64,000 nucleotides of DNA, from assembly GCF_008180155.1 (NCBI RefSeq), contig NZ_VSZS01000059.1:124001-188000 (forward strand), in the 5' to 3' direction. The notes below the pieces were generated by a model. It ran no database searches and was not told where the DNA came from. It was given only the letters and a program-made list of their open reading frames with translations. This document shows, one piece after another, positions 4,341-40,754 of this stretch. Source of the stretch: Neoaquamicrobium microcysteis. Lineage in GTDB: Bacteria; Pseudomonadota; Alphaproteobacteria; Rhizobiales; Rhizobiaceae. The stretch's first letter is position 1; every line of letters begins with the position of its first letter. Both the position numbers and the translations under genes were made by a program.

Positions 4341-4347
4341 GGCTGGA

Positions 4348-11661: not shown

Positions 11662-11705
11662 CCCTGCCCTTTTCGTGTTGTTCGGGACCCAACATCAACC
11701 TGCCG

Positions 11706-12716
11706 TCACATCTGCCGCGGCGTTCCATTCGACGTGATCGCGCGCTGCATGGAGGCGCCCGCGCCATCCTGCCGTGGTGAGTGGAGTCGAGCCTGGACGC
11801 GATGGACGGCGGCCTGCGTCTGGCGGGCGGATGTTCCGATGGCGGCACGGCTCCAGAAGATTCCCCTTGCGGTCAGTTGCCGCGAACGAGGCCCGATCGG
11901 CGTCGCCAACCCGCCCGCGATGCCTTGCGCGAGGGACTGCACCTGAAGGAGAACGAAGCTGCCAGCAAGGCAGAGCATGATGAAAGCAGCAAAGTCGCTG
12001 AGCTTCAGCTCGCGATTGCCGGAAATGCTGTCGATCGTCGTCAGTTCCGGTTCCATCGCCGCGATCAGGAATGCGGCGATCACGTAAACGAACAGCGGAA
12101 TGATCGCATAGAGCAACGACTGGTTCAGCCATCCCATGGCATAGCTACGGGTCACATCGAAAAAGAAGCAGGCAATGAAGATCGGCGCGGTGCCCAGCAG
12201 CACCCACAGCACGACCTTGGCTAGGACGAGAATGCCTAGCGCGATGGCAACGAACAGGCCGGCAAACACCATGATGATCATGCCGATCAAGGCCGGGAGG
12301 ACGGACAGATAGCCGGCCTGCTCTGAGAAGGCCGCCGCGGCGGTGTTTGCCGTCTTCCAGATTTGCGATAGCCCATTGGTGGGTTCGCTCACACCTGTGC
12401 CGGAAGCCGCCAGGATGGCGCGGCCGGCCGCTTCCGGCACGGTCGTCAGCCAGTCATAGACAAGATCGTTGAAATTCGACCATGTGCCGACAAGCACCAG
12501 GATGACGAAGACGCGCACCAGCCTGCCGATGATCTCGGCGACGCTGAGGCGTGACGTCCCGAGGAAAAGCTGCACGCCGTAGAACAGCACGGCAAGGACA
12601 AAGAGCAGACGCAGAAGCGGCTCGAGATCCTGGCTCAGCGCCTCGTACGCGCTCTGGGAAAAATTCTCTCCCGAAGCGTCAATCCGATCCAGCAGTTCTC
12701 CAATGAAGTCGTCCAC
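11706..12716 (-). CDS. virB6: VirB6 polytopic channel protein
   Basis: A 336-residue protein with six or so membrane helices (for example near 36-52, 66-80, 142-165, 170-190, 205-222, 245-262) and the conserved core WVLLGTAPIFIACFFFDVTR with the family Trp. The C-terminal 70 residues are basic and low complexity. VirB6/TrbL proteins form part of the inner-membrane pore through which the substrate strand passes. It sits 9 bases behind the small lipoprotein gene. Confidence 0.92.
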   Translation of the reverse strand: MDDFIGELLDRIDASGENFSQSAYEALSQDLEPLLRLLFVLAVLFYGVQLFLGTSRLSVAEIIGRLVRVFVILVLVGTWSNFNDLVYDWLTTVPEAAGRAILAASGTGVSEPTNGLSQIWKTANTAAAAFSEQAGYLSVLPALIGMIIMVFAGLFVAIALGILVLAKVVLWVLLGTAPIFIACFFFDVTRSYAMGWLNQSLLYAIIPLFVYVIAAFLIAAMEPELTTIDSISGNRELKLSDFAAFIMLCLAGSFVLLQVQSLAQGIAGGLATPIGPRSRQLTARGIFWSRAAIGTSARQTQAAVHRVQARLHSPRQDGAGASMQRAITSNGTPRQM

Positions 12717-25140: not shown

Positions 25141-25213
25141 GACCGGTGTTAAGAAAGCGTTAACTCAATATTCCTTGACCGGTCGATGGGAGTCAGATCA
25201 ATTTGCGCAAATT
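25141..25213. promoter_or_regulatory. repABC upstream control region
   Basis: The 160 bases before repA hold several palindromes: GTTAA...TTAAC (25148-25164), GACCGGTC (25177-25184, with a further GACCGGT at 25141-25147) and the perfect 14-base AATTTGCGCAAATT (25200-25213), about 32 bases before the repA ATG. In repABC plasmids RepA with RepB represses its own operon here. A TTGACC at 25175-25180 could be a -35 box. Confidence 0.45.
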
Positions 25214-25245
25214 TACACGATTGGCTCAGTTTTGCGACTTTCACG

Positions 25246-26463
25246 ATGAACCCAACCCGAGCTGTCAATTCGCGACCTAAAGGTGCTCAGGCGTTTGATG
25301 AAACGATCTGGGAAGATTCTCAGGCCTTGGGTTCTCAACTCCAGGTCTTGCGCGAGCGCCTATTCCCGCCGGAAGCCAAGAAGGAACTCCGTTCGTTCTC
25401 GACGGCCGAAACCGCAAAACTGATCGGCGTCACCGAAAGCTATATCAGAAATCTGGCAACCGACGAAGCGGGCCCGATCCCGGAGAAGGCGCATACTGGA
25501 CGGCGCCGCTACACGCTCGAACAGGTCCACGCATTGCGGCAGCACCTAACGAAGGGCAAGACGTCCTATGTGCCATGGCGCAAGGATGGGGAGCACCTTC
25601 AGGTTATCGCGGTCACCAATTTCAAAGGTGGATCTGGCAAGACCACCACCGCGACACATCTCGCACAATATCTCGCCCTTCATGGCCACCGCGTCCTAGC
25701 CGTCGACCTCGACCCCCAGGCATCAATGTCCGCCCTGTTCGGCTATCAGCCCGAATTCGACGTCGCCGACAATCAAACGCTTTATGGCGCGATCCGTTAC
25801 GATGAGGAGCGCCGGCCGCTCGCAGAGATCGTGCGCAAAACATATTTTGCGGGCCTTGATCTCGTGCCCGGCAATCTCGAGCTGCACGAATTCGAGCACG
25901 ATACGCCTCGCATTCTGTCGAGCGGCGAGCACGACGACGATGGGCTGTTCTTTATGCGGGTCGCCAAAGCGTTGCACAGCGTGGCGGACGATTACGACGT
26001 GGTGGTCATTGATTGTCCGCCACAGCTCGGCTTTCTGACTATGTCGGCGCTGTGCGCTGCAAGCGCCGTGCTGATCACCGTGCACCCGCAAATGCTCGAC
26101 GTCGCCTCAATGAACCAGTTTCTGGCCATGACGTCGCAATTGCTGGCGGTGGTGCGCGATAATGGCGGCAACCTCGACTATGACTGGATGCGCTATCTGG
26201 TAACGCGGCATGAGCCTAACGACGGTCCTCAGAACCAGATCGTGGCCTTCCTGCGCAATTTATTCGGCGAACGCGTGCTCACGCCGATGATGGTGAAATC
26301 GACGGCTATTTCCGACGCCGGTCTGTCAAAGCAGACGGTTTATGAAGCCCCGCGTGAGTCGATGCACCGGCAGACCTACGATCGCGCGTTGGAGTCGATG
26401 GACGCCGTGAATGGCGACATTGAGAAGTTGATCCTGCAGGCTTGGGGAAGGGCGGCCAAATGA
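25246..26463 (+). CDS. repA: RepA partition ATPase (ParA family)
   Basis: A 405-residue plasmid partition protein. The N-terminal part has an HTH used for autorepression (FSTAETAKLIGVTESYIRNL). The ParA domain carries the deviant Walker A KGGSGKTTT, VLAVDLDPQAS and VVIDCPPQLGFL. The ATG at 25246 gives the usual RepA length of about 400; the frame is open 20 codons further up without a ribosome site. The stop overlaps repB by four bases. RepA together with RepB segregates the plasmid and represses the operon. Confidence 0.95.
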   Translation: MNPTRAVNSRPKGAQAFDETIWEDSQALGSQLQVLRERLFPPEAKKELRSFSTAETAKLIGVTESYIRNLATDEAGPIPEKAHTGRRRYTLEQVHALRQHLTKGKTSYVPWRKDGEHLQVIAVTNFKGGSGKTTTATHLAQYLALHGHRVLAVDLDPQASMSALFGYQPEFDVADNQTLYGAIRYDEERRPLAEIVRKTYFAGLDLVPGNLELHEFEHDTPRILSSGEHDDDGLFFMRVAKALHSVADDYDVVVIDCPPQLGFLTMSALCAASAVLITVHPQMLDVASMNQFLAMTSQLLAVVRDNGGNLDYDWMRYLVTRHEPNDGPQNQIVAFLRNLFGERVLTPMMVKSTAISDAGLSKQTVYEAPRESMHRQTYDRALESMDAVNGDIEKLILQAWGRAAK

Positions 26464-27473
26464 AGAAACCCGATGGAAGGGGCAGGGACATCCTTCAGGG
26501 CCTCGTGGCTGCAGGCAAGCCAGGGCGCCCGACCGACGGATCGCTGCAGCAAGCGCGGCCGTCGGGCGCGGTCAAAGCGATGAGCCTGGGCCTTGATCGC
26601 CTTTCCGCCGAAGCGGCCCAAGCAAAGGCCTTGCGCGAAGAGCTAGCAAACCGCGAGACGACCCAGGAACTCGATCCGGCTCTGTTCAGTCCCTCGATCG
26701 TCTCGGATCGGATTCCGTCTACCAGCGACAGCCGCTTTCAGGAGCTGAAGGCGGCGATTGCTGAGAACGGTCAGCAGATACCGATCATCGCCCGCCCGCA
26801 CCCGTCCGAAGAGGGGCACTTCCAGATTGCAGCTGGACACCGCCGCTGGCGTGTGGCGCAGGAGCTTGGACTAAACGTCAAAGCGATCATTCGTAAACTC
26901 ACCGACCAGGAAGTGGTTATCCTGCAAGGCCAGGAGAACGGGCCGCGGGAAGATCTCACCTTCGTCGAGCGGGCGCGGTTCGCCATGCAGATGGAAAGTC
27001 ACGGCTTTGACCGCGATACCTTGTCGGCCGCCCTGAGCGTCGACAAGCCTGAGATTTCGCGGCTTCTAACGGTGGCGCAAGCAATCGGTGAGGATCTGAT
27101 CGTAGCGATCGGGCCAGCCCCGAAGGTGGGCCGTCCCAGATGGCTTCAGCTCGTCAAGGGACTCGAACAGTCCGGCGCACACGACGCGCTGCACAAACTG
27201 CGCGCCTCTTCGGAGTTCGTAAGCGCGGACAGCGATCAGCGCTTTGCGCTCGCTCTCCAGGCAGTTAGCCCCGGCAGGCGGGCGAGCAAGCGCCGACCGG
27301 CATCGTCTGACCGCGTTGCCTGGGTCGAGAAGAAGGGCGGCAACATCCGCCTAGTCTCGGACAACGCCGGCTTCGCAAGCTTTCTTCAGCGCCGCTTCCC
27401 TGCGCTCCTTGAGGAGTTCAAGAGCAGCCCTGAAGCCAAATCGAAAAAGACGCCGAAAGGAGCAACGCACTGA
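26460..27473 (+). CDS. repB: RepB partition protein (ParB family)
   Basis: A 337-residue ParB-type protein. The N-terminal RepA-interaction region is followed by the ParB core with GQQIPIIARPHP, FQIAAGHRRWRVAQELGL and a QGQENGPREDLTFVERARFA segment, then an HTH-like DTLSAALSVDKPEISRLL. It binds parS-like palindromes; two lie at 25083 and 27494, on either side of repA-repB. The ATG at 26460 overlaps the repA stop (ATGA). Confidence 0.95.
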   Translation: MKKPDGRGRDILQGLVAAGKPGRPTDGSLQQARPSGAVKAMSLGLDRLSAEAAQAKALREELANRETTQELDPALFSPSIVSDRIPSTSDSRFQELKAAIAENGQQIPIIARPHPSEEGHFQIAAGHRRWRVAQELGLNVKAIIRKLTDQEVVILQGQENGPREDLTFVERARFAMQMESHGFDRDTLSAALSVDKPEISRLLTVAQAIGEDLIVAIGPAPKVGRPRWLQLVKGLEQSGAHDALHKLRASSEFVSADSDQRFALALQAVSPGRRASKRRPASSDRVAWVEKKGGNIRLVSDNAGFASFLQRRFPALLEEFKSSPEAKSKKTPKGATH

Positions 27474-27493
27474 AAAACAGACGCTTTCGGGAA

Positions 27494-27509
27494 ATTGTCA
27501 GCTGACAAT
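27494..27509. repeat. parS-like site in the repB-repC gap
   Basis: ATTGTCAGCTGACAAT is a perfect palindrome; symmetry extends to 22 bases (27491-27512). It fits the repABC parS consensus except for the outermost base pair and lies 20 bases after the repB stop. Confidence 0.72.
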
Positions 27510-27547
27510 TTCTGACTAGCGAGCCGCACAAAGAAACCCGGGCAAAG

Positions 27548-27596
27548 AAAAAGGCCCCCGAAAACGACATTCCGGAAGCCCTTCTCAGGTCTGGTA
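27548..27596 (-). ncRNA. Antisense ctRNA (incA/RepE-type) controlling repC
   Basis: On the minus strand a promoter (27631-27603) would start an RNA near 27596. It ends in a hairpin made by GGCTTCCG (27580-27573) and CGGGGGCC (27560-27553), followed by a run of U (27552-27548). Every repABC plasmid studied has such a short antisense RNA in the repB-repC gap that lowers repC expression and causes incompatibility. Length of about 50 and position match; the ends are inferred. Confidence 0.75.
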
Positions 27597-27602
27597 AACA
27601 CG

Positions 27603-27631
27603 AGAATCGCACTTCCTGGAATCACAGTCAA
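27603..27631 (-). promoter_or_regulatory. Promoter of the ctRNA
   Basis: TTGACT (27631-27626) and GATTCT (27608-27603) on the minus strand are separated by exactly 17 bases. This is a good sigma70-type promoter directed into the ctRNA hairpin. Confidence 0.65.
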
Positions 27632-27697
27632 GGCCCTCGGGCCGAGAGCGTCGATTCGGCGAGCGGATTTCTATTGCCTAGCAAAAGGTGAAGAAAG

Positions 27698-29014
27698 ATG
27701 CAGACGCATATCACAACGACGCCCTTTGGGCGGCGGCCGATGACGCTTGCCATGATGGCCAGTCAGGTCGCAGCGAACGCCATGCCGGAAGGTGCAATCG
27801 TTCAAAAATGGCATGTCTTCAAATCCATCCGTGAAGCCAAGGATATGATCGGTGCCACGGATCGCTCGCTGGCGATCCTGAACGCGCTTCTCTCCTTTCA
27901 TCGGGACACGGAGCTTTCGGCCGAGGGCGAACTCGTCGTGTGGCCGTCGAACGAGCAGCTCATGGCCCGATCAAACGGCATGCCGGCGACAACGTTGCGG
28001 CGTCATCTGGCCGTCCTTGTCGATTGCGGGTTGATCATCCGCCGGGACAGCCCGAACGGCAAACGCTTTGCGCGCAAGGGCAGGGGCGGGCAGATCGAAC
28101 AGGCCTACGGCTTCGATCTGTCGCCGATCATCGCGCGAGCCGGGGAGTTCGCCGAACTGGCGGAGACGGTTCAGACCGAAAAACGCGCCTACAAGACTGC
28201 CAGGGAGCGCCTGACCTTGTTGCGCCGGGACATCGTGAAGATGATCGACGCTGGCATCGAGGAGGGGGTCCCAGGCAATTGGGGCAAGATGACCCGAACC
28301 TATCAAGCGATTATCGGCCGGCTCCCTCGAACCGCTCCCCGGCAACTTCTCGAGGATATCTGCGAGGACCTGGACCTGCTCTGGATCGAAATTCGTGACG
28401 TGCTGGAATCTTTCACGAAAACACAAAATTCGGACGCCAATGAGTCCCATTCCGGTCGCCACATACAGAATTCAAATCCAGACTCCATATCTGAATCTGA
28501 AAGCGGCTTAGGAGACAAAGAAGAAGCGGGCGGCAACGCTGCGGAAAACGACAACCTGCACAGCTTGCCCAAACGGGAATTGCCCTTGGGGATCGTGCTG
28601 GACGCGTGTGGAAACTGGCGCGAGCTAGCCAAGGATGGGGAAATCCGCAACTGGGGCGACTTTCTGGCGGCGGCGGAGGTCGCCCGGCCGATGCTAGGGG
28701 TCAGCCCCAGCGCCTGGCGAGAGGCCTGCGAGGCACTGGGCGAACGGCAGGCGGCGATCACGCTGGCCGCGATCTATCAGCGCGCCGATCAGATCAATAG
28801 CGCCGGCGGCTATTTACGCAGCCTGACCGATCGAGCGCGCGGCGGGAAATTCTCGGCCTGGCCAATGGTGATGGCGCTCTTGCGCGCGAAACTGGATACC
28901 CAAAAGGCGGCCGCGCAGACCCGAGGCGGGCCGCCGGACGATGGCGACAACAGGGAAGGGCGGCTCGAGGTGTCGGAAGCGCTTCTTAGAAGCCTGCGCA
29001 GGCCGAAATCCTGA
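27698..29014 (+). CDS. repC: RepC replication initiator
   Basis: A 438-residue initiator of repABC plasmids. The N-terminal RP-C domain (FGRRPMTLAMMASQVAAN, then WPSNEQLMARSNGMPATTLR and LVDCGLIIRRDSPNGKRFA) binds the origin. The C-terminal domain has GVSPSAWREACEALGERQA and RSLTDRARGGKFSAWPMV. Between them the DNA is AT-rich (about 28420-28510), where oriV lies in other repABC plasmids. A purine-rich AAGGTGAAGAAAG precedes the ATG. Copy number should be set by the ctRNA upstream. Confidence 0.95.
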   Translation: MQTHITTTPFGRRPMTLAMMASQVAANAMPEGAIVQKWHVFKSIREAKDMIGATDRSLAILNALLSFHRDTELSAEGELVVWPSNEQLMARSNGMPATTLRRHLAVLVDCGLIIRRDSPNGKRFARKGRGGQIEQAYGFDLSPIIARAGEFAELAETVQTEKRAYKTARERLTLLRRDIVKMIDAGIEEGVPGNWGKMTRTYQAIIGRLPRTAPRQLLEDICEDLDLLWIEIRDVLESFTKTQNSDANESHSGRHIQNSNPDSISESESGLGDKEEAGGNAAENDNLHSLPKRELPLGIVLDACGNWRELAKDGEIRNWGDFLAAAEVARPMLGVSPSAWREACEALGERQAAITLAAIYQRADQINSAGGYLRSLTDRARGGKFSAWPMVMALLRAKLDTQKAAAQTRGGPPDDGDNREGRLEVSEALLRSLRRPKS

Positions 29015-29522: not shown

Positions 29523-29945
29523 TCATGCGGTCCACGGATCGAGCAGCCCAAACCCAAAACCTTCGAAATCCTTTGTGTTGCGGGTCGCCAAGGTGAGGTG
29601 TTTCGCGGTCGCTGTCGCGGCGATCAAGCCATCCATGGATGACAGACCGCGGCCGCGACGCTTCGCCAGGGCCATCAGATCGCCCCAGGCTAGAGCGATC
29701 GACTCGTCTACATGGAGAACCCTTTGCTCGAAACGCTGCGGCAGATCCTGCGCCAGCCATTCAGCCAGAGTCTCGCGTTTCCGGCCTTCGTCCATGAGCG
29801 CGACGCCGCGCCGGATCTCGGCAATCGAAACTACGCTGATGAACGAACGGTCCTCATCAAGCTGGTCCAGCCATTCCAGAACCCGCGGGTCGGGGGCTGG
29901 CTTCGTCACCTCAGACAGAACATTCGTATCGAGCAATAGTCTCAC
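29523..29945 (-). CDS. vapC: VapC-like PIN-domain toxin
   Basis: A 140-residue PIN-domain ribonuclease toxin. The acidic residues expected for metal binding are visible: Asp6 in LLLDTNVLSE, Glu in SIAEIRRG, Asp in SSMDGLIAATA and Asp in TRNTKDFEGFG. It resembles the FitB/VapC group. It is encoded after its antitoxin with a four-base overlap and probably stabilises the plasmid. Confidence 0.9.
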   Translation of the reverse strand: MRLLLDTNVLSEVTKPAPDPRVLEWLDQLDEDRSFISVVSIAEIRRGVALMDEGRKRETLAEWLAQDLPQRFEQRVLHVDESIALAWGDLMALAKRRGRGLSSMDGLIAATATAKHLTLATRNTKDFEGFGFGLLDPWTA

Positions 29946-30208
29946 AGCCGCAGATCACGCGGTTCGTCGCGCTGACGCTCGACGTCGAGATCGGTGCCGC
30001 GCAGCGGCGAATCCATAAGGAACTCCGCAAGCGTGCCCTTGCGCACCGTCTTGCGCTGCCATTCCTCGGCCGAGACGACAACGACACTTGGCTTGCCGTT
30101 CCGGGTGATCGTTTGAGGTGCAGACTGTGCGCGCTCGATGACCTCCGACAGCCGAGCTTTGGCTCCTGCGACGGTCCAGTTGGTATCTTCTCTGGGTGCA
30201 GACAGCAT
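29942..30208 (-). CDS. vapB: Phd/YefM-type antitoxin
   Basis: An 88-residue protein of the Phd/YefM fold: WTVAGAKARLSEVIERAQSA, then QTITRNGKPSVVVVSAEEW. The C-terminal half is charged and should bind the toxin. The antitoxin gene precedes vapC, as usual, and probably represses the pair by binding the short repeats upstream (30221-30244). Confidence 0.88.
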   Translation of the reverse strand: MLSAPREDTNWTVAGAKARLSEVIERAQSAPQTITRNGKPSVVVVSAEEWQRKTVRKGTLAEFLMDSPLRGTDLDVERQRDEPRDLRL

Positions 30209-30291: not shown

Positions 30292-31524
30292 TCAGAGCCC
30301 TGATGCCTTGGTGAGATTAACGCGGAATCGATCGCGGCGGCGCTGATATTTGCGGGTCATTTCGGCCGAGGCATGGCCAAGCTGCTTCTGGACGTAGCGC
30401 TCGTCGACCTCGGCCGAAGAGGCGAGGCCAGACCGTAATGAGTGTCCGGCAAACAGCTTGCCGCGCTGGCCCTCGGGCAGGTCGCCGCGCACACCGGCGG
30501 CGAGTGCCGTCCGCTTGACCAAGCGTGCGACCTCCTGGTCGTTGAGCCGCTCGGCGCCGACGGTCTTGCCTTGCCCTGTCACCCGGCGGAACATGGGGCC
30601 GTGGGCGATCCGGCCGAGCTTGAGCCATGTCTGCAGCGTGACGACCGGGCAGGTGGCGTCGGAAGAGCCGCGACCGATCTCGACCTCACGCCAGCCTGTC
30701 TTGCCCCGCAGCGTCACCAGCATGCCTTTGCCCAGGATTTCGACCCAGCCCGAAGAATCCTCGGTTTGGTCGCGGCCGACGTCGAGACCGACGATTTCGG
30801 AGCGGCGCAGGCCGCCAGCAAAGCCGAGCAACAGCATGGCGCGATCGCGCAGCCCGCGCAGGCTGCCACGGTCGAGCGTCTCCAGCATGGCGATCAGATC
30901 CTCGGGCAACACCGCCTCCTTCTGCCGAGGCGGGGCGGCGTGCTTGTTGCGGATGCCAGCCATCACCGTGGCGATATGGCGGTCCTTGCGATCAAGCGCC
31001 TGGCCGCGCTGGGCAAAGTTCCAGGTCAGCGAGGAGAGCCGGCGTTCGATCGTCGACACGGAGTTTGGCTTCTTGTCGCCTGTTGCCGTGCCGGACGCGC
31101 AGGCCGTGATGTAGAGCCCGACGGTCTGCGGGTCGGGCGGGAACATCTCGACGCCCTGCCGGCGGCACCAGCTGGCAAAATGCTTCCAGTCCGAGGCGTA
31201 GGCGCGCCGCGTGTTGGCCGAGCTCGCCGCCTCGACGTAATCGCGGGCGCGATCGGCCAGCGCGTCGAGATGCGCCGGCAGCCGCGGGTTCGAGACGACC
31301 GGAAGGGGAGGGGAGGGCGCCTGGACTTCCGCCGGCGGTTCTTCCGGGGTGCGACCCATCGCCATGACGACGTCGATGATGTCGGGCAGATCGTCTGCAT
31401 CGGCCGCCGGCTTCTCGGACCACAGCCGCGCAGTCGAAACACCATCTGCCGGCCCCGTGCTGTGGGACGGTGCGGAGGATCGCGCGAGGCGATTTTCGAG
31501 CATTTGGTCGACGTTTTGGGCCAT
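30292..31524 (-). CDS. Tyrosine recombinase/integrase
   Basis: A 410-residue site-specific recombinase. The SAM-like core-binding domain (about 85-190, with ANTRRAYASDWKHFASWC) is followed by the catalytic domain: Arg in GFAGGLRRSEIVG, HxxR in AGHSLRSGLA, and the box QLGHASAEMTRKYQRR with the nucleophilic Tyr. The first 85 residues are low complexity. It is divergent from DUF1403-scpB, with palindromic DNA between. It may resolve plasmid multimers rather than integrate, because it sits in a plasmid maintenance region. Confidence 0.9.
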   Translation of the reverse strand: MAQNVDQMLENRLARSSAPSHSTGPADGVSTARLWSEKPAADADDLPDIIDVVMAMGRTPEEPPAEVQAPSPPLPVVSNPRLPAHLDALADRARDYVEAASSANTRRAYASDWKHFASWCRRQGVEMFPPDPQTVGLYITACASGTATGDKKPNSVSTIERRLSSLTWNFAQRGQALDRKDRHIATVMAGIRNKHAAPPRQKEAVLPEDLIAMLETLDRGSLRGLRDRAMLLLGFAGGLRRSEIVGLDVGRDQTEDSSGWVEILGKGMLVTLRGKTGWREVEIGRGSSDATCPVVTLQTWLKLGRIAHGPMFRRVTGQGKTVGAERLNDQEVARLVKRTALAAGVRGDLPEGQRGKLFAGHSLRSGLASSAEVDERYVQKQLGHASAEMTRKYQRRRDRFRVNLTKASGL

Positions 31525-31547
31525 TTCTCATATTAAGAGCAAAACGA

Positions 31548-31629
31548 ACGATAATGCAACATTATCAGTCATTTTATCGTGTCGACAAGCGCGGCGGTTT
31601 GCACCCATTTTTGTTGCCAAAACCGCCGC
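31548..31629. promoter_or_regulatory. Nested dyads between recombinase and DUF1403 genes
   Basis: Three inverted repeats occupy the 125-base divergent gap: GATAATG-CAA-CATTATC (31550-31566), ACGATAA/TTATCGT (31548-31554 and 31574-31580), and GCGGCGGTTT/AAACCGCCGC (31591-31600 and 31620-31629, perfect 10-base arms). They may be operators for the divergent genes or the recombination site of the integrase. Confidence 0.45.
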
Positions 31630-31649
31630 CATGATTCATCATCCTCACG

Positions 31650-32669
31650 ATGATTCTGCGCCCGAAATCCTCTTTGCGCCACCAAGGGCCGATGCTCGCC
31701 GCCGCTGCGGCCACTCCGGCGGTTGCGCTGCCAGGCTGGCTGCGCCGCGCCGTTCCGGACGCGCAAAGCCTTGCTACGGAAGGGGTTGAGGACATCGCAA
31801 TCGCCGCGGGCGCCGCCATCGGGGCGCTCGACGCGGTGGTCCGCCGACAGGAACGATGGGCCGGCGCGTGGCGGCAACGGCAGGCGCTCGCCGCGGCGGC
31901 AGTGGCGACCAGGCAGGCCGGGCGCGTCGAGGACGCAGCGGCTCTGCGCGACGCCGTTCTTCTCACCCGACCCGGCGACGATGTCGGCCCGGCCGGCCAC
32001 ATGCTGCTGGCCTGGCGCCGTCTTGCGGCGCGGCCCGCGGAGGAGTTGCTGACCGCGGCGAGCATCGCCGGCGTGCTCGAGGGACTGGGTCTCGCTCGGG
32101 ATGACGAGACGACGAACGAGCTGACCGACGAGCTTCGGCAGCTTGCGGCGACCGAAGGTGCTGTCGGAATGCTGATCGGCGCCTTTGCGGCAGTCGAGAG
32201 GCGCGGCCTTCCACTCACCGTTGGATGCTGGTTTGCCGACGCCATGCTCGCGCAGCGGCTGGGCTGGACGCACGCCGTGCCGCTGCTCGGTGGCGAAGCT
32301 GCCGGCGCCGATGGTTCGGGCCGGCAGCGGCGCGGCGCGACCATCCTTGCGCCGAAGGGCATCGAGGCGGACCCCGAACGCGCGAAAACTCTGCTCGCCG
32401 CGCAGGCGCGTGCGGCGTTGCGTGCCGTCGACCAGTCAGCCGACATCGAGCGCCGGGCCGACCGCCTGATCGCCGTGGCGCCCGGCCTTCGCGCCCGAGG
32501 CGCGGACGTCGTCGTCGATCGGCTCATGTCGGACGACGCGATCGTGGCATCGGCGAAGATCGCCGGCATGAGCGACCGCAGCCTGCGCCGACTGTTCGAG
32601 CGCCTGGTCGAACTCGGCGCCGTGCGCGAGCTGTCCGGCCGCTCGACCTTCCGCATCTACGGGATCTGA
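31650..32669 (+). CDS. DUF1403 family protein
   Basis: A 339-residue, Ala-rich, almost entirely helical protein of the DUF1403 family, seen on Rhizobiales plasmids beside a recombinase and an scpB-like gene. Helices such as LRDAVLLTRPGDDVGPAGHM and LTDELRQLAATEGAVGMLIG fill the body. The last 40 residues (IAGMSDRSLRRLFERLVELG, then AVRELSGRSTFRIYGI) look like a winged helix. No function is known. The gene ends 5 bases before the scpB-like ATG. My family call rests on recalled pattern and neighbourhood. Confidence 0.7.
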   Translation: MILRPKSSLRHQGPMLAAAAATPAVALPGWLRRAVPDAQSLATEGVEDIAIAAGAAIGALDAVVRRQERWAGAWRQRQALAAAAVATRQAGRVEDAAALRDAVLLTRPGDDVGPAGHMLLAWRRLAARPAEELLTAASIAGVLEGLGLARDDETTNELTDELRQLAATEGAVGMLIGAFAAVERRGLPLTVGCWFADAMLAQRLGWTHAVPLLGGEAAGADGSGRQRRGATILAPKGIEADPERAKTLLAAQARAALRAVDQSADIERRADRLIAVAPGLRARGADVVVDRLMSDDAIVASAKIAGMSDRSLRRLFERLVELGAVRELSGRSTFRIYGI

Positions 32670-32674
32670 CGACG

Positions 32675-33370
32675 ATGGCGGAGGCGGCGCGGAAAAAACG
32701 AAAATCAGTAGACGGAGGCGACGGTCTCTTCGACCGCGAGCTCGACCATCTGCCGCCGGAGGCAAGGTGGCGGGAATGGATGAACCGCGTCGAGGCAACC
32801 ATCTTTGCGGCGAGCGAGCCGGTCGGCCGGGACACGCTGGCGCGGATCGTCGGCAAGACCTGCAGCATCGATCTTCTCATCGACGACATCCGCGAGGAGC
32901 TGCGCGGCCGGCCCTACGATCTGGTCGCCGTCGCCGGCGGCTGGAAGCACCTGACGCGGCCGGCCTACGCCGACGCCATCCGAACGGCGGTTGGCGCGAG
33001 CGCGCGTGCCGTCGACCTGACCCAGTCGGAAGTGCTGGTGCTGATGTGCATCGCCTATTTCCAGCCGATCACCCGCGCCGATCTGTCCACCTTCTTCGGC
33101 AAGGAGATCAGCCGCGACCTGATCGGCAATCTGCGCTCGCGCGGCTTCATCGCTTCAGGTCCGCGCGCGCCGCAACCCGGCGCGCCCTACACCTATGTCA
33201 CGACCCAGGCGTTCCTGCTCGAGTTCGGGCTCGAAACCCTGCGCGATCTTCCCGACCGTGAGGCACTCGAGGACGCTGGCCTGCTCTCGAAGGAAAAGCT
33301 GCTGGCCGGCGACATCATGCCAGAGTTGGCTGGCGGCCAAGAGGAGCTCGGGCTCGAAATAGACGAATAG
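32675..33370 (+). CDS. ScpB-like protein (SMC-Scp complex subunit)
   Basis: A 231-residue protein with the ScpB pattern of two winged helices: VEATIFAASEPVGRDTLARI, then IDDIREELRGRPYDLVAVAGGW at the first, and VLVLMCIAYFQPITRADLST, LIGNLRSRGFI and YVTTQAFLLEFGLETLRDLP at the second. Chromosomal ScpB binds the kleisin ScpA of the SMC condensin. No scpA or smc gene is adjacent, so this plasmid copy may serve another complex together with DUF1403. The frame is open upstream across DUF1403, but the ATG at 32675 begins the homologous part. Confidence 0.82.
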   Translation: MAEAARKKRKSVDGGDGLFDRELDHLPPEARWREWMNRVEATIFAASEPVGRDTLARIVGKTCSIDLLIDDIREELRGRPYDLVAVAGGWKHLTRPAYADAIRTAVGASARAVDLTQSEVLVLMCIAYFQPITRADLSTFFGKEISRDLIGNLRSRGFIASGPRAPQPGAPYTYVTTQAFLLEFGLETLRDLPDREALEDAGLLSKEKLLAGDIMPELAGGQEELGLEIDE

Positions 33371-33556: not shown

Positions 33557-35671
33557 ATGAAGCTGTCGAATATTTCTATTCGAAACCTAAAAGGCATTCG
33601 CGAGGGTGGATTCAATCCAACGACCTTTGCATGCCTTGTCGGAGAGAACAACGCAGGCAAGTCCACGGTCCTTCAAGCGGTCACTTACGCTCTCAATCGT
33701 CCAAGCCAGCTTCCGGATCAGCTGTACTATGATGCACAGCTTCCGATCCTAGTGGAGCTAGGATTTACAGGCATTACTGCTGCAGATATCGCGCGTTTGG
33801 CGGAGGAGCACCGCGCGAGGATCGAGCCCCTTGTGATCGATGGATCGTTTACGCTCAAGGTATCGTACCGCATTGGCGAGAAGGTCGAGATTAAGACCGC
33901 ACGTTTGGTCCCGAACGAGCCCAGATATCAGCAAGAGACAATCAATGCTGTTTTTGCAGGCAAGACAGGAGCTGCTGTTCGCGCTGCGCTGATTGAGTCC
34001 TATCCGGAATTTGCGCAGGAGGTACCGGATGGTGCGATGAACCAGGGGCAAGCCAAAGCCTTCCTGTCAGCTAAGCTTGGCGAGTTGCCACCGGAAGCGT
34101 TTGCGCTGGCGGACGCGCCTCTGCCAACAGGGATTAGCTCGTCGATCACCGCGTTCCTCCCCGAAGTGATCTATATTCCGGCCGTCAAGAACCTTAGCGA
34201 TGACTTGAAAACCACGCAGTCGACCTCGTTCGGTCGCCTCTTGGGGTTGCTTCTCGATGATATGACACCTGATCTCGCAGCCATAAATCAATCGCTGCAG
34301 GAACTCGATGGCATGCTCAACCGGATAGTGGTCGAGGGCGATGTCGTAGATGGGCGCCACGAAAAGGTGAAGGAGCTCGAAAACACGGTCGAAGAGTTTC
34401 TGAGCGAGAATTTCCCGCTGGTAAAAGTGGAACTCAGCATACCGCGGCCCGAGCTACGCACGATTCTCAATGCTGCTCAGATTTATGTGAACGATGGCTC
34501 AAAGGACCTTATCGACAACAAGGGAGATGGGATCAAACGATCGTTGACGTTTGCCCTGCTGCAAACCTTCGTGCTGCACTTGGCGGCGCGAAATCAAGTG
34601 GCGGCCGAGCAGGAGCAGGAAGTGGCACCCCGGCCCCTCCTGTTTCTGTTCGAGGAACCGGAACTCTATCTGCATCCCAAATCGCAACGAGTCTTGTTCG
34701 GTACGCTCGCGCGTATCGCGGAGACCCATCAAGTCATTGTTACAACGCATTCGCCCCTATTCTTCGCCCCCGGTGTCACGGCATCATTCGTCCGCGTTGC
34801 CAAGCGGGCGGCAGATCCTAAGCCAGTGGGCGTTCTCTATCCCGTCGACTTGACCCTTGATCAAGCCAGCGCGGAAGCTTTTCGATTGGCCCGTTTCGAG
34901 AACGCGGACGCTGCCTTTTTTAGCAGGCGGGTTGTGCTGTTTGAAGGTGAATCTGACGACGCATATTGCAGACATATTGCAAAGACGCTGAACGCGAACT
35001 GGGATTTCGACGCGAAGAATATCGCCATGGTTCGCGTGTCAGGAAAAGGCAACTTCGCAAAATACAGGCGTTTCTTCGAAAGCTTTGGTATCGAGGTCAA
35101 AATCGTCGCCGACCTCGACGCTCTGTTCGAAGGCTATCAACATCTCGGGGTCCCAGCCGAAGTCAGTCCTATCCGAGCAGAGACCATCGCTGGGATCGAT
35201 GCTCGCATCGAGGCCTTGGGGATTAGGGCAGAGCCTGCCACCCGCCAGATTAAGGATCAACTTGGAAAGGAAAGCTGGCGTCAGCGATACAGCGCGGCGA
35301 AGGACGCTGTAGGAAAGCTCAGCCACGGAGAGGCTCTCAACGAGGATATTGTGAAAGCGCTGGACGACCTGTTCGTCTGGGAGAAGGATATCGCGCGCGT
35401 GAAAGCCTGCCGTGAGGACATTGATGCTCGAAACTGCCTCGTGCCGGTCCTCGATGCGATGCGCGCCAGTGGAATCTCGGTCCTCTCGAAAGGGGCGATT
35501 GAGGACTACTATCCGGCAGACACACCGGGAACCTCGAAACCGGACCGTGCCCTATCAGCTTGTAGTCTCGTAGCAGGCGCACAAATCGCTCGGGGTCTGT
35601 CGGCGTCGCTGGCCCCTGATCGGGAGCCCGAACTATGCGAGATCTTCGCCGAGATTTTTCTCGAGCCTTGA
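33557..35671 (+). CDS. OLD-family ATP-dependent nuclease (ATPase plus TOPRIM)
   Basis: A 704-residue protein. The ABC-type ATPase has Walker A GENNAGKST at 29-37 and the signature/Walker B FEEPELYLHPKSQRV, then the His switch VTTHSPLFF. A C-terminal TOPRIM domain follows with VVLFEGESDDAYC and KIVADLDALF. OLD proteins nick or degrade DNA and act in phage exclusion or repair. The ATG at 33557 has GAGGGG before it; the frame is open further up without homology. GC content looks lower than in the neighbours, hinting at separate acquisition. It converges on the YhaN-like gene. Confidence 0.88.
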   Translation: MKLSNISIRNLKGIREGGFNPTTFACLVGENNAGKSTVLQAVTYALNRPSQLPDQLYYDAQLPILVELGFTGITAADIARLAEEHRARIEPLVIDGSFTLKVSYRIGEKVEIKTARLVPNEPRYQQETINAVFAGKTGAAVRAALIESYPEFAQEVPDGAMNQGQAKAFLSAKLGELPPEAFALADAPLPTGISSSITAFLPEVIYIPAVKNLSDDLKTTQSTSFGRLLGLLLDDMTPDLAAINQSLQELDGMLNRIVVEGDVVDGRHEKVKELENTVEEFLSENFPLVKVELSIPRPELRTILNAAQIYVNDGSKDLIDNKGDGIKRSLTFALLQTFVLHLAARNQVAAEQEQEVAPRPLLFLFEEPELYLHPKSQRVLFGTLARIAETHQVIVTTHSPLFFAPGVTASFVRVAKRAADPKPVGVLYPVDLTLDQASAEAFRLARFENADAAFFSRRVVLFEGESDDAYCRHIAKTLNANWDFDAKNIAMVRVSGKGNFAKYRRFFESFGIEVKIVADLDALFEGYQHLGVPAEVSPIRAETIAGIDARIEALGIRAEPATRQIKDQLGKESWRQRYSAAKDAVGKLSHGEALNEDIVKALDDLFVWEKDIARVKACREDIDARNCLVPVLDAMRASGISVLSKGAIEDYYPADTPGTSKPDRALSACSLVAGAQIARGLSASLAPDREPELCEIFAEIFLEP

Positions 35672-35822: not shown

Positions 35823-38800
35823 CTACGCAATCTCATGCATGCCCGTTTGCGGTAGCACCTGAGATGCGATTTCGCATAGATGCCGATGGTGGGTAAAATA
35901 GATCACCTGACCTACCTGAGCCATCTGCGCAAACAGCCGGAATACCTCCTCCGACCGCGGTTCGTCGAAGGTTTCCATGATGTCGTCGGCGATAAAGGGG
36001 ACGGAAGGCCGGGCTGCCGCGAACTCCTCGTATCCGGCAAGACGCAACGCCAGATACAGCTGGAACTGCGTGCCCTTGGACATCTCCACCGCAAGCTTGG
36101 AACCGCCATGCCGTGACAGACCGATGAGCGCTTCGCGATCCTTGTCGGGCCGCGTGGCAAGGCCGGTATATTCGTCGCGCGTGATCAGCCGGAACGCTTC
36201 GGATGCCCGGTTCATCATCGCGCTGCGATGTTTGTCGCGATAGGCGCGAATGCCGTGCTCGGCGACCAGGCTTCCGCTTCTGAGGCGAAGATAGCGCAGC
36301 GCCAGATCCTCGATTTCCAGGAGCAATGTGCGCCGGTTCGCCTCAAGGCGGGCAGCGGCATCATCGCCGCCAATGGCGGTCAGGCGATCGGTTGCACGCG
36401 CCTTGTCGGCGAACAGGTTCTTCGCCCGGCCGTCGAGATCTTCAAGACGTGTCACAAGCTCGGCCTGCTCCCGCTGCAGTTCGGCCACGTCGGCATCGGC
36501 AAGGTTGGCCATGGCAGTTTCCAGCGATGGCAGCTGCATATCACCAACGATCTGCCGTTCGAGCTTGCCCTGCTGCTCGACCAGTTCATCCCTTTTCCGG
36601 CAGCGTTCGAGAGCTTGCCGAACATCCGCAAGGGTCTCGGTCTGGAAGAAGTCTGTCGGTTCCTTCGTGCGCGCGGCATGGACCGCTATTTCGCCGTCCA
36701 GCCGTTCGCGTTCGATCGCGAGATCGATAAGGCTCTGGTCCCGTTCCTGTCGCTTCGCCTCAACCTGTCTGGCTTCCTCGTGTCGTCGGAGCAGGATCTT
36801 GGCGGCGTCAACGGGATTGCTGTCGTCGAATGTGTCGCCGAGAGCGTCATGCAGTTGGGCGACCGCTTCGACGAAGGACTTTCGATCTGCCTCCATGGAG
36901 TCAATGCGGTGTCGGAGATCATCCTGCTCGCGTAGAACTTCGGGAAGGCTGGCGATCGCATCGAGAAGCTCACGGACGGCGCCGACACTTCCTTCCCCGT
37001 TGAACCAGGTGCTTACGAGGGCGGTCGACCAATCTGTCTGCCAATTTTCAGCTGCGGTGACAGCATCGTCGAGCTCCGCTTTCCGTCGAACCGCGGCCGC
37101 TTCCAAGTCACCGATGCGATTGTGGGCGTCCTGCCGCTTGGTGTGCATCGCAGCATGGTCCGAGAGGATGGTGTCGGCCGCCAGCATCAGAGCGGCCACA
37201 TCCAGACCATCGATAACGATCCCGACATTGATCAGGGTCATCGCGAGCGAATCCTGCTCCGTCGCGAGCGCAGTCCTGGCTTCTTCGGCGTCACTCGAGG
37301 CACGGCGCAAATCATCCCACGCAGTCAGCGCCGAAGTGCGGGTCTCAGCCCATCGGCCGATCCTTGTCAGCCATGACCCGACGGATGCATCGTCACCCAG
37401 ATCGATTTCCGCTGGCGTTTCCGTCCTGATCTCGCGGCGCAGTGTCTGCAGTTCTTCATCGGTCTCCCGCAACAATTGGCGTTGGCGGTCGACGCTCGCC
37501 GTGGTTGCCGCCAGCCCTGCGGCCAGGGAACGCAGCTCCTCGAGTTCCCTGGCCCTGTTCAAACGTGCGGCCGCTGCTGCATCGGTCGCTCGCATTCGGG
37601 TCTCGAAGCGATCGGCCGTTTCCCGATCGAGGACCGACAGATGCTGCGCCCAGGCTTCTTCCCGTTCGAGAAGGGCGGCCTTCGCCTCATCATCATCCAT
37701 GATGTCGATCGCTTCGCGGAGGGCAGCCAGCCGTGCTGCATCTTCCTCCTGCTTCGTCGAGAGCTCTCGTTGACGCTCGATGATCTGCGAGCGACGCTTC
37801 TCTATGTCGCTGGAAGCCCTCTTCCAGAATTCAACGCGATCGGCAGCGGGTGGCGACATGCGCCGAAGTTCGTCACCGTCACCGGACCATGGATGCAGCC
37901 CGCCGACGGCATCTTCAAAATCCTGGCGTTTGGCGGGAACACCTCGTTCGGCAAGGCGGAGTTCGGCAACAAGATTGCCATCGCGCAAGCGGCGCAGCAC
38001 CGATTGAAGCTGTGCCACCTTGCCAGCATCGATCTGGGTGCCCTGGCCATCTAGTGCTTGGCGGGCACGCTGCTCTTTCTCAAGGGCCAACCGGGCTGCC
38101 TCATGCTCCTTTTCGGCCGATTGTCGTGCGACATCAACGCCGGACTTTTCGCTGATCAGATCACGCAGCGTCCCGATCGTGGCAGCCGGTATGAGCAGTG
38201 ACTTCGGATCGTCGATGTCTGCCTGACCCAGCGTAGCGAGGATGAGATCGACCTTCCGGCTCGATCCAGACAGCGCCTGCGTCCTTTTCGGCAGATCTTC
38301 TTGCGCGGTCGCATATCGTGCGGCGGCGTCTGTCAGCTGATCGAGGCGATCCGCCATCTCAAGCAGACGGTTCTCGACCACGAGCCCTTCGAGTTCCTCC
38401 CGGGCCTTCTGCTCGCGCTGTCCAATGCCGGCGAGCTGGGTTTGAAGCCGCGTCTCTTCGACAATCAGGTCTGGAAGTGCGGACGCCCACTCAGCTGGCG
38501 GATGTGGCAGGTCCGCGTATTCGGAAAGCTGCTCGTCTCCCTGACGGTATTCGGCCACCAGGGGGTGGGCACGCAGGACGCGCGCGATCTCGTCGTGGCG
38601 GGCCTTTGCCGTACCGATCTCCTTCATGGCGGCGTCATAGGCCGCTTCAGCCTGCTCGAGCGCTGTCATCAGCGTTCTGTAAGCCGAGGCCTGGACGTCG
38701 ATATCATCGCGCTGCGATTTGAGTTCCGCGATCTGGCGTTTCAGGCCGGCGATCTTCGTCGAGCTGGCGCGCTTCCGGAAAATGCCATCGGCCTCAGTGA

Positions 38801-39302
38801 TCGCAGTCTCGAGAATGGAACTGATGCCGGCGAGGCCAGCGCTCGCCGAGAACAGCAACTCCCCCAGATCGCCCTTGCTTTCCAGAATGGCGTTGCCGCC
38901 ATCTTCCAGCGTCTGATCGTCGAGCGAGAACATCATGCGATAGGCGTCGCGCGTCAGCCCGGCGAGCGGGACGCTCAGGATCGCCTCGTTGACCGGCTGC
39001 CCGTGCGCGTCTAGTAGCGAGTTGCTGCGCTGCTTGACGCGCTTGAATTCATGCGCCTGCCCGTCGAACTCGAGGCAGGCGCCGATCTCCATCGCCTTGC
39101 CTTGATGTAGGAAGCCGTAGCGCGTGCGTTCTTCTATGCCGAAGAGGAGATCGAGATAGCCAGAAAGGGCCGTCGATTTGCCTGCTTCGTTCAAGCCGTA
39201 GATGATGTGCAGGTCCGGCGTGCCAGCAACGTGTTCTCCGAAGTCGATCGAATAGTCTGTGAACTTGCCGTAGCGGGTGAGATCGAGCTGGCGCAGACGC
39301 AT
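35823..39302 (-). CDS. YhaN/SbcC-like AAA ATPase with long coiled coil
   Basis: An 1159-residue Rad50/SbcC-like protein. It opens with LRQLDLTRYGKFTDYSIDFG and Walker A YGLNEAGKST (35-44). Long coiled-coil segments (about 175-250 and 280-1000) flank a middle turn. The C-terminal half-site has FIADDIMETFDEPRSEEV (Walker B) and the H-loop VIYFTHHRHL. The family (AAA_27, YhaN) pairs with YhaO-type nucleases for DNA-end processing or repair. The ATG shares one base with the stop of the upstream nuclease gene. Confidence 0.88.
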   Translation of the reverse strand: MRLRQLDLTRYGKFTDYSIDFGEHVAGTPDLHIIYGLNEAGKSTALSGYLDLLFGIEERTRYGFLHQGKAMEIGACLEFDGQAHEFKRVKQRSNSLLDAHGQPVNEAILSVPLAGLTRDAYRMMFSLDDQTLEDGGNAILESKGDLGELLFSASAGLAGISSILETAITEADGIFRKRASSTKIAGLKRQIAELKSQRDDIDVQASAYRTLMTALEQAEAAYDAAMKEIGTAKARHDEIARVLRAHPLVAEYRQGDEQLSEYADLPHPPAEWASALPDLIVEETRLQTQLAGIGQREQKAREELEGLVVENRLLEMADRLDQLTDAAARYATAQEDLPKRTQALSGSSRKVDLILATLGQADIDDPKSLLIPAATIGTLRDLISEKSGVDVARQSAEKEHEAARLALEKEQRARQALDGQGTQIDAGKVAQLQSVLRRLRDGNLVAELRLAERGVPAKRQDFEDAVGGLHPWSGDGDELRRMSPPAADRVEFWKRASSDIEKRRSQIIERQRELSTKQEEDAARLAALREAIDIMDDDEAKAALLEREEAWAQHLSVLDRETADRFETRMRATDAAAAARLNRARELEELRSLAAGLAATTASVDRQRQLLRETDEELQTLRREIRTETPAEIDLGDDASVGSWLTRIGRWAETRTSALTAWDDLRRASSDAEEARTALATEQDSLAMTLINVGIVIDGLDVAALMLAADTILSDHAAMHTKRQDAHNRIGDLEAAAVRRKAELDDAVTAAENWQTDWSTALVSTWFNGEGSVGAVRELLDAIASLPEVLREQDDLRHRIDSMEADRKSFVEAVAQLHDALGDTFDDSNPVDAAKILLRRHEEARQVEAKRQERDQSLIDLAIERERLDGEIAVHAARTKEPTDFFQTETLADVRQALERCRKRDELVEQQGKLERQIVGDMQLPSLETAMANLADADVAELQREQAELVTRLEDLDGRAKNLFADKARATDRLTAIGGDDAAARLEANRRTLLLEIEDLALRYLRLRSGSLVAEHGIRAYRDKHRSAMMNRASEAFRLITRDEYTGLATRPDKDREALIGLSRHGGSKLAVEMSKGTQFQLYLALRLAGYEEFAAARPSVPFIADDIMETFDEPRSEEVFRLFAQMAQVGQVIYFTHHRHLCEIASQVLPQTGMHEIA

Positions 39303-40573
39303 CAGCTGATCTCCGATACTTCCGGCTTCAACCGGGCCAGCATGTCCTCGCTGCCTTCCGTCAGCAACTGGTCGATCAGGGCTTCGAACGCGGCTTCGTC
39401 ATCCCCGCTGAAACCGCGCGCCTCCGGTGGCATATCATCGCGCAGTTCCCTGACCAGATCACGCACTGCCTCGCGAACACCATGCTGGTGAATGATGTCG
39501 CTGCGCATCAGCTCACCGAGTTCCAGGACCGGGTCGGCGGTAATTCCTCCAACCGGCGTGCTGATCGGCGCCGTGGTGGCAATCTCGATCTTCTCGATCC
39601 AGGTCTTGCCGAGCCGTTCGGCGCGCTGCTCGGTTTCTGCCAGCAGCAGATCGCGATCACGTCGCAGCTGCCACGACAAAGGCGTTGGGCCCGTCAACCG
39701 AAGGCGGCCGACGAGATGGGCCGAGCGTATCCGATCGCGGACGACACCCATGCCTTGCTCAATGAGCTCGGCCGCCTCTCGCCAGGTTGCGGCGGATGAA
39801 AGGTCGACCGAGACCCGTTCGAACTGGGCAACGCTTGTTGCGCGTTCTTCGACGGTGAGGCTGCGATCGTCATTGACCGTGACGAGCGTGACGGATTTCT
39901 CACCTGCTTCGTTGATGTCGCGACCCTGCGGCATGCCCGGCATGATCACCATGCGATCGCCGGCATGTTGGGCACGAACATGAACATGTCCCAAGGCCCA
40001 GTAATCGAAGCCCCAGCTATGGAGGTCTGACGCCTTGCACGGCGCATAGAGATCGTGGCCCGGCGCTCCGGCGAGACTCGTATGCATAATGCCGATATTG
40101 ATCGCGTCCGGGGTAGGGCGGTGATATTTCTCGAGGAGGCTTTCCGGTGCTTGCGGTTTTGAAAAGCTCAAGCCGTGAACAGAAATGCCGATGTTGCCTC
40201 TAGTGAGATTAATTGCCTCGGCGCGCCCACCAAATCTCGTGACCAAAGGTGGCAGGATCAGCTCCTGAGTGATCCTCGACATGGCATCGTGATTGCCGCG
40301 AATGATGAACGTCGCGATGCTGGCTTCATGAAGCCGCTGCATCTGGCTTGCCAGAAAGCGGGCGGTTTTCATCGACGTCTGATCGCCGTCGTATAGATCG
40401 CCAGCGATAATCAGTGCATCGACCTGTTCATCGATGCAGAGATCCACGATGGCGATCAGGGCCTGGCGCGTTGCGTCGCCAATCAGCTCGGCGAGATCAC
40501 TATTGCGCATCGCCAGCGAGCGCAGTGGGGAATCCAGGTGAAGGTCGGCCGTGTGAACAAATCGAAATGCCAT
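39302..40573 (-). CDS. YhaO/SbcD-like DNA exonuclease (metallophosphoesterase)
   Basis: A 423-residue nuclease subunit with the phosphoesterase metal motifs in order: HTADLHLDSPL (residues 7-17), GDLYDGD, IRGNHDAMSR, MHTSLAG and LGHVHVRAQ. The C-terminal half (about 290-423) is helical and should bind the ATPase, as in SbcD-SbcC. The ATG at 40573 begins the metal-binding domain; the frame is open 54 codons further up without homology. The ribosome site is weak. It is coupled to the YhaN-like gene (TGATG). Confidence 0.88.
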   Translation of the reverse strand: MAFRFVHTADLHLDSPLRSLAMRNSDLAELIGDATRQALIAIVDLCIDEQVDALIIAGDLYDGDQTSMKTARFLASQMQRLHEASIATFIIRGNHDAMSRITQELILPPLVTRFGGRAEAINLTRGNIGISVHGLSFSKPQAPESLLEKYHRPTPDAINIGIMHTSLAGAPGHDLYAPCKASDLHSWGFDYWALGHVHVRAQHAGDRMVIMPGMPQGRDINEAGEKSVTLVTVNDDRSLTVEERATSVAQFERVSVDLSSAATWREAAELIEQGMGVVRDRIRSAHLVGRLRLTGPTPLSWQLRRDRDLLLAETEQRAERLGKTWIEKIEIATTAPISTPVGGITADPVLELGELMRSDIIHQHGVREAVRDLVRELRDDMPPEARGFSGDDEAAFEALIDQLLTEGSEDMLARLKPEVSEIS

Positions 40574-40754
40574 ACAATGATGTTTGTCTGATTTCAGGGA
40601 GACTTTGAACAAGAGATTATCGTATTGCCATCGACAGCGCACAGAATCCTCATCCACGATGCGCAGCGTCGATGCATCCGCCTCTCTGGTGACGTCGGTT
40701 CGATGCTGCTCTTCGCATTGGACGCCTTGGCCCACACCATCAGTTCCATGATCT

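Follow-up and report, generated by a model that had tools for sequence, protein, structure and literature searches.

ScpB is usually seen as a subunit that works only together with ScpA and the SMC protein. In multimer resolution of the cer/PepA-ArgR type, a protein with an enzyme fold serves as a DNA-binding accessory near a Xer-like recombinase. CbFic2 has been described as a DNA-binding Fic protein with a C-terminal helix-turn-helix, and its dimerisation on the DNA has been proposed (PMC10628234). Here, we analysed a stretch of 64,000 nucleotides from Neoaquamicrobium microcysteis (assembly GCF_008180155.1, contig NZ_VSZS01000059.1, positions 124,001–188,000; hereafter the window), in which a gene of the DUF1403 family is followed by a gene for a divergent ScpB. 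The two genes form a tight, conserved operon on alphaproteobacterial plasmids. We favour, at about even chances, the reading that DUF1403 and ScpB are two subunits of a site-specific DNA-binding complex for the maintenance of large low-copy plasmids, mostly of the repABC type. An earlier interpretation of the same DNA (the sequence-only reading) had proposed instead a plasmid condensin-like module with DUF1403 as an analogue of the kleisin ScpA.

Conserved pairing of DUF1403 and ScpB

Pfam matches confirmed the genes of the recombinase, DUF1403, and ScpB where the sequence-only reading had put them (Table 1), and the DUF1403 stop codon indeed lies 5 bases ahead of the ScpB start. Relatives were collected by scanning one genome per species with patterns derived from plasmid ScpB. 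From the at least 544 found, we retained the best 80 loci, a choice that biases the sample towards near relatives. All 80 had DUF1403 or a remnant of it directly upstream of the plasmid ScpB. The DUF1403 gene was in one open frame in 69 loci and spread over two frames in 8, while only its C-terminal end was present in 3 (in one case at the edge of a contig). Spacing between the two genes was 2, 5, or 3 bases in 55 of the 69 single-frame pairs. In loci L061, L080, L088, L092, L021, L029, L045, L072, and L075, DUF1403 and ScpB were in the same frame, separated by one stop codon and 3–6 bases.

The genome of the strain itself contains one ScpA, four ScpB, and three DUF1403 genes. Each of the three extra ScpBs adjoins a DUF1403, and the single ScpA match is next to the chromosomal ScpB on a different contig. 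The claim that no scpA is present nearby thus held, with no ScpA match (E 0.001) on the contig of the window. A second test of the pairing, independent of the plasmid motifs, took one genome for each genus of the family (81 in all). DUF1403 was present in 30 of them and ScpA in 66; a second ScpA was found in none. Among the ScpBs scoring 100–125 bits, 37 of 38 were immediately preceded by a DUF1403 match in the same orientation, which in one case was a fragment below the cut-off; the count of 38 was made from listings and excludes 10 ScpB matches below 100 bits (fragments or doubtful).

Searches with tblastn gave DUF1403 matches in 684 of 72,556 plasmid records, and in 36 of these records the match covered at least 80% of the query. 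In Rhizobium johnstonii 3841, the pair is located on plasmid pRL10 (L085). A sample across the class, in which up to five candidates were scored per genome, gave a DUF1403 match in 4 of 385 genomes, including the genome of the strain itself. No viral relatives were confirmed by sequence in viral contigs, and by fold all matches in BFVD had E-values above 0.3. The view of the DUF1403–ScpB cluster as a plasmid module is thereby upheld, in the form of a conserved pair that usually comes with a palindrome and often lies near repABC and a tyrosine recombinase.

Predicted fold of DUF1403

The AlphaFold2 model of DUF1403 was nearly all-helical (predicted local distance difference test, pLDDT, 86.8; predicted template modelling score, pTM, 0.84). 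In VIA-align, the best match was SoFic (3eqx_B; Z 18.3, root-mean-square deviation (rmsd) 4.7, 285 aligned residues, 11% identity). Rows 1–26 were all Fic proteins, with Z from 18.3 to 10.8, and the next row was a winged-helix-only match with Z 8.0. Foldseek also ranked Fic proteins first, with probability 1.00. The Fic match spans residues 42–339 of DUF1403 and includes a winged helix at approximately 268–339, so the winged-helix C-terminus anticipated from the sequence was borne out in the model.

The Fic motif HxFxxGNGRxxR was absent in all 67 members of the DUF1403 alignment, from which three short members among the 69 pairs had been excluded. Over the seven fixed positions they had 3–5 mismatches, the same as shuffled sequences. 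Nine Fic comparison proteins had 0–1 mismatches, but these had been chosen by the same motif and are therefore no independent control. As judged from the model, DUF1403 is predicted to be a Fic fold with a C-terminal winged helix that has lost its catalytic motif. The structure of CbFic2 (8cil) was the fifth-ranked VIA-align match (Z 15.5), and this precedent makes a DNA-binding role for DUF1403 plausible.

The proposal that DUF1403 is a kleisin analogue, forming a plasmid condensin with ScpB and with SMC or the SbcC-like ATPase, drew on its place beside ScpB where ScpA would be expected, on its nearly all-helical composition, and on its winged-helix end. We now regard it as barely credible. 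The model matches Fic proteins over residues 42–339, winged helix included, and homologues of the SbcC-like ATPase were found in 0 of 80 loci. Profile comparison of DUF1403 with ScpA by hhalign, which the sequence-only reading had suggested, gave 0.3% over 14 columns and hence no match; plasmid and chromosomal ScpB reached 99.9% in the same run. The 0.3% alone proves little, because hhalign also misses the Fic relation (4.7%). No chain of a kleisin, whose layout is an N-terminal helical domain, a linear middle segment, and a C-terminal winged helix, was among the PDB matches listed for DUF1403, which excludes nothing alone. The sequence-only reading had further linked its proposal to two structural features, a kleisin-related fold and an interface with ScpB: the predicted fold appears unrelated to kleisins, and a fused fold of the two proteins gave a pTM of 0.61, which speaks neither way.

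Plasmid-type ScpB

The ScpB of the window scored 68.5 on TIGR00281, the ScpB equivalog model, under the cut-off of 89.2, and is for this reason considered divergent. Its PDB matches were 1t6s, 3w6j, 2z99, and 4i98. In the phylogenetic tree, plasmid ScpBs stood on one side and chromosomal ones on the other (40 versus 32 rows) with support of 100/100; the tree was built from every second alignment row plus eight others, and the bootstrap was not fully settled. Column comparison showed that plasmid ScpBs have an N-terminal RWREWM segment of their own, and that the core motifs and a C-terminal segment are common to plasmid and chromosomal ScpB. The winged helices of ScpB also matched MarR-type repressors (Z ~9). 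The fused DUF1403–ScpB fold, calculated from 93 rows of which 9 were paired, had a pLDDT of 80.6, and its parts were as expected (Fic match with Z 17.3; ScpB match to 3w6j_F with Z 13.1 and rmsd 14.4).

Palindrome upstream of the operon

The palindromes noticed upstream of DUF1403 are real and conserved across loci. The first, which we designate IR1, has 12-bp arms and a 7-bp centre; the second, IR2, lies nearer to the gene. The pattern GATAA-N7-TTATC with at most one mismatch preceded the DUF1403 gene in 49 of the 69 pairs, and 13 further sites were found elsewhere in 886,895 bases (three loci with no DUF1403 call were left out of the site scoring). Its position was 98–102 bp before the DUF1403 start in 43 of 54 aligned regions, which had been preselected for a site 40–140 bp before the assigned start. 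A wider core, G[AG]TAA-N7-TTA[TC]C, was found in 108 of 140 loci and in 0 of 700 mononucleotide shuffles; the 140 are 142 loci minus two with short flanks and include some near-copies, and L001 repeats the window.

In a blastn search (E up to 10), the 151-bp region had matches in 336 plasmids. Among six chosen matches, DUF1403 was annotated in three, and in one the same gene was named hypothetical. The remaining two were the Ti plasmid pTiS4, with an unlisted DUF1403, and Martelella pMM259, where a gene for an IS6 transposase comes after what is left of DUF1403. In pTiS4 (L211), the gene lies at approximately 4135–5013 with 64% identity and is missing from the PLSDB gene table of this plasmid. 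IR1 occurred in 22 of 26 pairs with a recombinase within 700 bp and in 27 of 43 without (Fisher p 0.06). Since sites were seen at DUF1403 in both settings, the palindrome follows DUF1403 with or without the recombinase.

IR2 keeps its register in other loci, with its arms changed on both sides, and may be an operator of the DUF1403–ScpB promoter. A TATGCT-like -10 box was seen by eye in many rows approximately 7 bases before the start codon; because it lies so near, the transcript of the operon may be leaderless. These features also bear on a simpler explanation, a plain autoregulated transcription-factor pair in which ScpB and the DUF1403 winged helix act as repressors of neighbouring plasmid genes and have no role in segregation. 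IR1 and IR2 are placed like the operators of a divergent promoter, and the likeness of ScpB to MarR-type repressors fits such a role. Such a pair would lack a constant target, as the gene across IR1 varies while the operon and IR1 stay, and we consider this explanation unlikely.

Recombinase and neighbouring genes

Table 1. Features of the locus, in positions of the window.
Feature	Positions	Strand	Evidence or description
repA, repB, repC (plasmid replication and partition)	25186-29014	+	TIGR03453, TIGR03454, NF040974 above cut-off
Tyrosine recombinase, XerC/D-like, divergent	30292-31524	-	Pfam Phage_integrase PF00589 8e-14; XerD/XerC models far under cut-off
IR1, extended imperfect palindrome	31541-31575		perfect core GATAATGCAACATTATC at 31550-31566, 100 bp before DUF1403 start
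IR2, inverted repeat	31591-31629		GCGGCGGTTT...AAACCGCCGC, between IR1 and DUF1403
DUF1403	31650-32669	+	PF07183 2.1e-68
ScpB, plasmid-type, tandem winged-helix KITE protein	32675-33370	+	PF04079 1.4e-32, 112.9 bits (cut-off 27.4)
Rad50/SbcC-like gene	35823-39302	-	PF13514, 5e-66

The replicon around the window is a repABC plasmid with conjugation genes. Its tyrosine recombinase contains the words GLRRSEI, HSLRSG, LGHAS, and KYQRR at residues 238, 361, 382, and 392, with R, HxxR, H, and Y present, which we take to be the catalytic residues. Of the 80 loci, 44 had a homologue of the recombinase (25 of the 49 with full flanks); the gene was divergent and within 700 bp in 26 of 69 pairs. It was present in 10 of 12 named plasmid regions, although the query used to choose six of these regions extended into the start of the recombinase gene, and absent from two Rhodobacterales regions (L007 and L009). 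The recombinase is thus a common companion outside Rhodobacterales. Its inclusion in the unit by the sequence-only reading stands as far as a frequent neighbour is meant; with homologues in only 44 of 80 loci, it is not constant and was rejected as a core part. Any Rep gene was found in 27 of 80 loci.

These counts, together with the size of IR1, which resembles the core site of a tyrosine recombinase, and its somewhat higher frequency beside the recombinase, would agree with DUF1403 and ScpB being accessory factors of the recombinase in multimer resolution and with IR1 being the crossover site. We find this quite improbable, as IR1 stays at about the same distance in the 27 of 43 pairs with no adjacent recombinase and is kept also where TniQ or another gene intervenes, and as L007 and L009 have the gene pair and no match to this recombinase.

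Several further genes flank the operon. Between repC and the recombinase, a PIN-domain (VapC-like) toxin gene (29523-30208, - strand) is preceded by a small gene placed like that of an antitoxin, and such a VapC/antitoxin pair was found again in several related loci. According to the consulted part of a report on plasmid pSmeLPU88b (PMC10194956), a block of recombinase and toxin-antitoxin genes follows repABC there; the words ScpB and DUF are absent from that part of the text. Directly behind ScpB lies a gene for an OLD-family ATPase with a TOPRIM domain (33557-35671, + strand; PADLOC Old 5e-85), likely a defence or DNA-processing gene. It is followed on the opposite strand (35823-40735) by genes for a YhaN-like AAA_27 ATPase of 1159 aa and an SbcD/Mre11-like phosphoesterase, end to end, which by their domain matches appear to be an SbcCD-like nuclease pair on the plasmid. 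No homologues of the OLD-type and YhaN/SbcC-like genes were found in the 80 related loci (phmmer E 1e-5, up to 6 kb on each side), and both were rejected as parts of the module. The Rad50/SbcC-like ATPase pointed out in the sequence-only reading is therefore present, but it does not belong to the module and is unrelated cargo.

Host ScpA

In a set of 237 family genomes, ScpA accompanied DUF1403 in all 91 that had the latter, and DUF1403 was found in 0 of 37 genomes without ScpA versus 91 of 200 with it (Fisher p 3e-9; 17 of the 37 were assigned as ScpA-less from numbering gaps). Of the 37 genomes without detectable ScpA, 26 were larger than 3 Mb. A strong RepC match (at least 83 bits) was present in only 6 of these 37, with 2 more weak matches, and in 8 of 22 tested ScpA-positive genomes without DUF1403 and 3 of 3 with it. 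Since RepC is scarce in ScpA-less genomes, the association of DUF1403 with ScpA may only reflect plasmid carriage, and we do not claim that DUF1403 depends on host ScpA.

The same data bear on an adaptor to the host condensin, in which the plasmid ScpB would bind host ScpA, and DUF1403 at the palindrome would load or tether the host SMC ring. The retention of the core motifs and the C-terminal segment of chromosomal ScpB agrees with such an adaptor, as does the co-occurrence of DUF1403 with ScpA, confounded as it is. Yet the plasmid ScpBs form one distant group, and not every ScpB homologue binds ScpA: a study on archaeal homologues (PMC7055376) reports that 6 of 6 tested pairs failed. The search with an SMC hinge hidden Markov model missed the genome of the strain itself and is uninformative. 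We regard the adaptor as possible and somewhat doubtful; the odds given to it and to the maintenance complex overlap, because the former is one form of the latter.

Proposed function

The data show an operon, a predicted Fic fold that lacks its motif, and a palindrome tied to DUF1403; from these we infer a physical complex of the two proteins, the identity of the subunit that binds the palindrome, and a role in plasmid maintenance. In this favoured reading, DUF1403 would be the scaffold, its C-terminal winged helix reading IR1, and probably also IR2, before its own operon. ScpB would be the dedicated partner of DUF1403, with which it is encoded rather than with ScpA. The complex on the palindrome would regulate its own operon, and often also the divergent recombinase. 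It would further build a nucleoprotein site that aids plasmid segregation and in many cases lies close to the genes for replication and partition. Through ScpB, it may also be linked to the host SMC–ScpA ring. In its strongest version, a catalytically dead Fic protein would replace the kleisin as the partner of a KITE protein, bind the plasmid palindrome, and capture the host SMC ring via ScpB to organise or segregate the plasmid, which would be a categorically new machine for plasmid maintenance; we think this fairly doubtful.

Several observations weigh against the maintenance complex. Regarding the pairing, genome G411 has a plasmid-type ScpB with no DUF1403 in approximately 2.4 kb upstream, the sole exception among the 38, and on another contig a DUF1403 without ScpB. 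No DUF1403 is listed next to the ScpB match of G444 (87.8 bits), and the ScpB behind DUF1403 in G463 stops after approximately 65 residues. As to the fold, the best Foldseek E-value was 1e-3 and none was counted below it. Pfam Fic was matched by 0 of 67 DUF1403 members at E 10, and with 4.7% in hhalign, the likeness to Fic is structural only. The pTM of the fused fold speaks neither for nor against an interface between DUF1403 and ScpB. IR1 went undetected in 32 of the 140 loci, including L007 and L009, which do have the gene pair. It might also bind another protein, and its centre may be just promoter sequence. Finally, a Rep gene lay within 6 kb in 18 of 49 loci with full flanks, so closeness to repABC is frequent and not universal.

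DUF1403 was named nowhere in the 5.39 million open-access papers searched (subscription journals lay outside the scope), and the operon was not described in the listed open-access titles and abstract beginnings on ScpB, repABC, plasmid, or Ti plasmid. The assignment of DUF1403 to the Fic fold, its tight pairing with ScpB, and the palindrome appear to be new. A whole group of ScpBs is tied to a Fic-fold protein instead of ScpA and SMC, and the plasmids concerned number in the hundreds, with Ti and rhizobial plasmids among them. If the pair binds the palindrome, the question arises whether plasmids steer or mimic the chromosome-folding machine of the host or whether ScpB has been repurposed. The DUF1403 family gains a predicted fold, and the palindrome is directly testable.

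Comparison with known systems

DUF1403 shares its domain order and fold with Fic proteins carrying a C-terminal winged helix, namely SoFic (3eqx), Mycobacterium marinum Fic (7cb8), and Coxiella CbFic2 (8cil), which it matched with Z 18.3, 17.9, and 15.5, respectively, from residue 42 to 332–339. It differs from them in the lost motif, the absence of a Pfam Fic match, the low identity (11–13%), and in being encoded with ScpB. Another family of rhizobial plasmids, DUF1612/HTH_13 (RHE_PE00001 family), may be compared as well: HTH_13 weakly matched 24 of 67 DUF1403 members (best 9e-4; limit E 10), and the profiles of the two families matched at 4.1% only, with a two-sequence profile for DUF1612/HTH_13. 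In one example, locus L005, a gene for a DUF1612/HTH_13 protein (11463-12515) lies 3.7 kb from the pair with no ScpB adjacent to it. The two-sequence profile matched Fic at 36% probability, so this family may also be a Fic-fold relative.

Multimer resolution of the cer/PepA-ArgR type would be the same idea as a DUF1403 beside a recombinase; unlike there, the recombinase here varies in its presence, and it is DUF1403 that the site accompanies. With the ScpB of SMC–ScpAB (3w6j, 4i98), the plasmid ScpB has in common the sequence and fold of a KITE tandem winged-helix protein. It is set apart by its score under the equivalog cut-off, its separate group in the tree, the RWREWM segment, and its being encoded with DUF1403 and not with ScpA.

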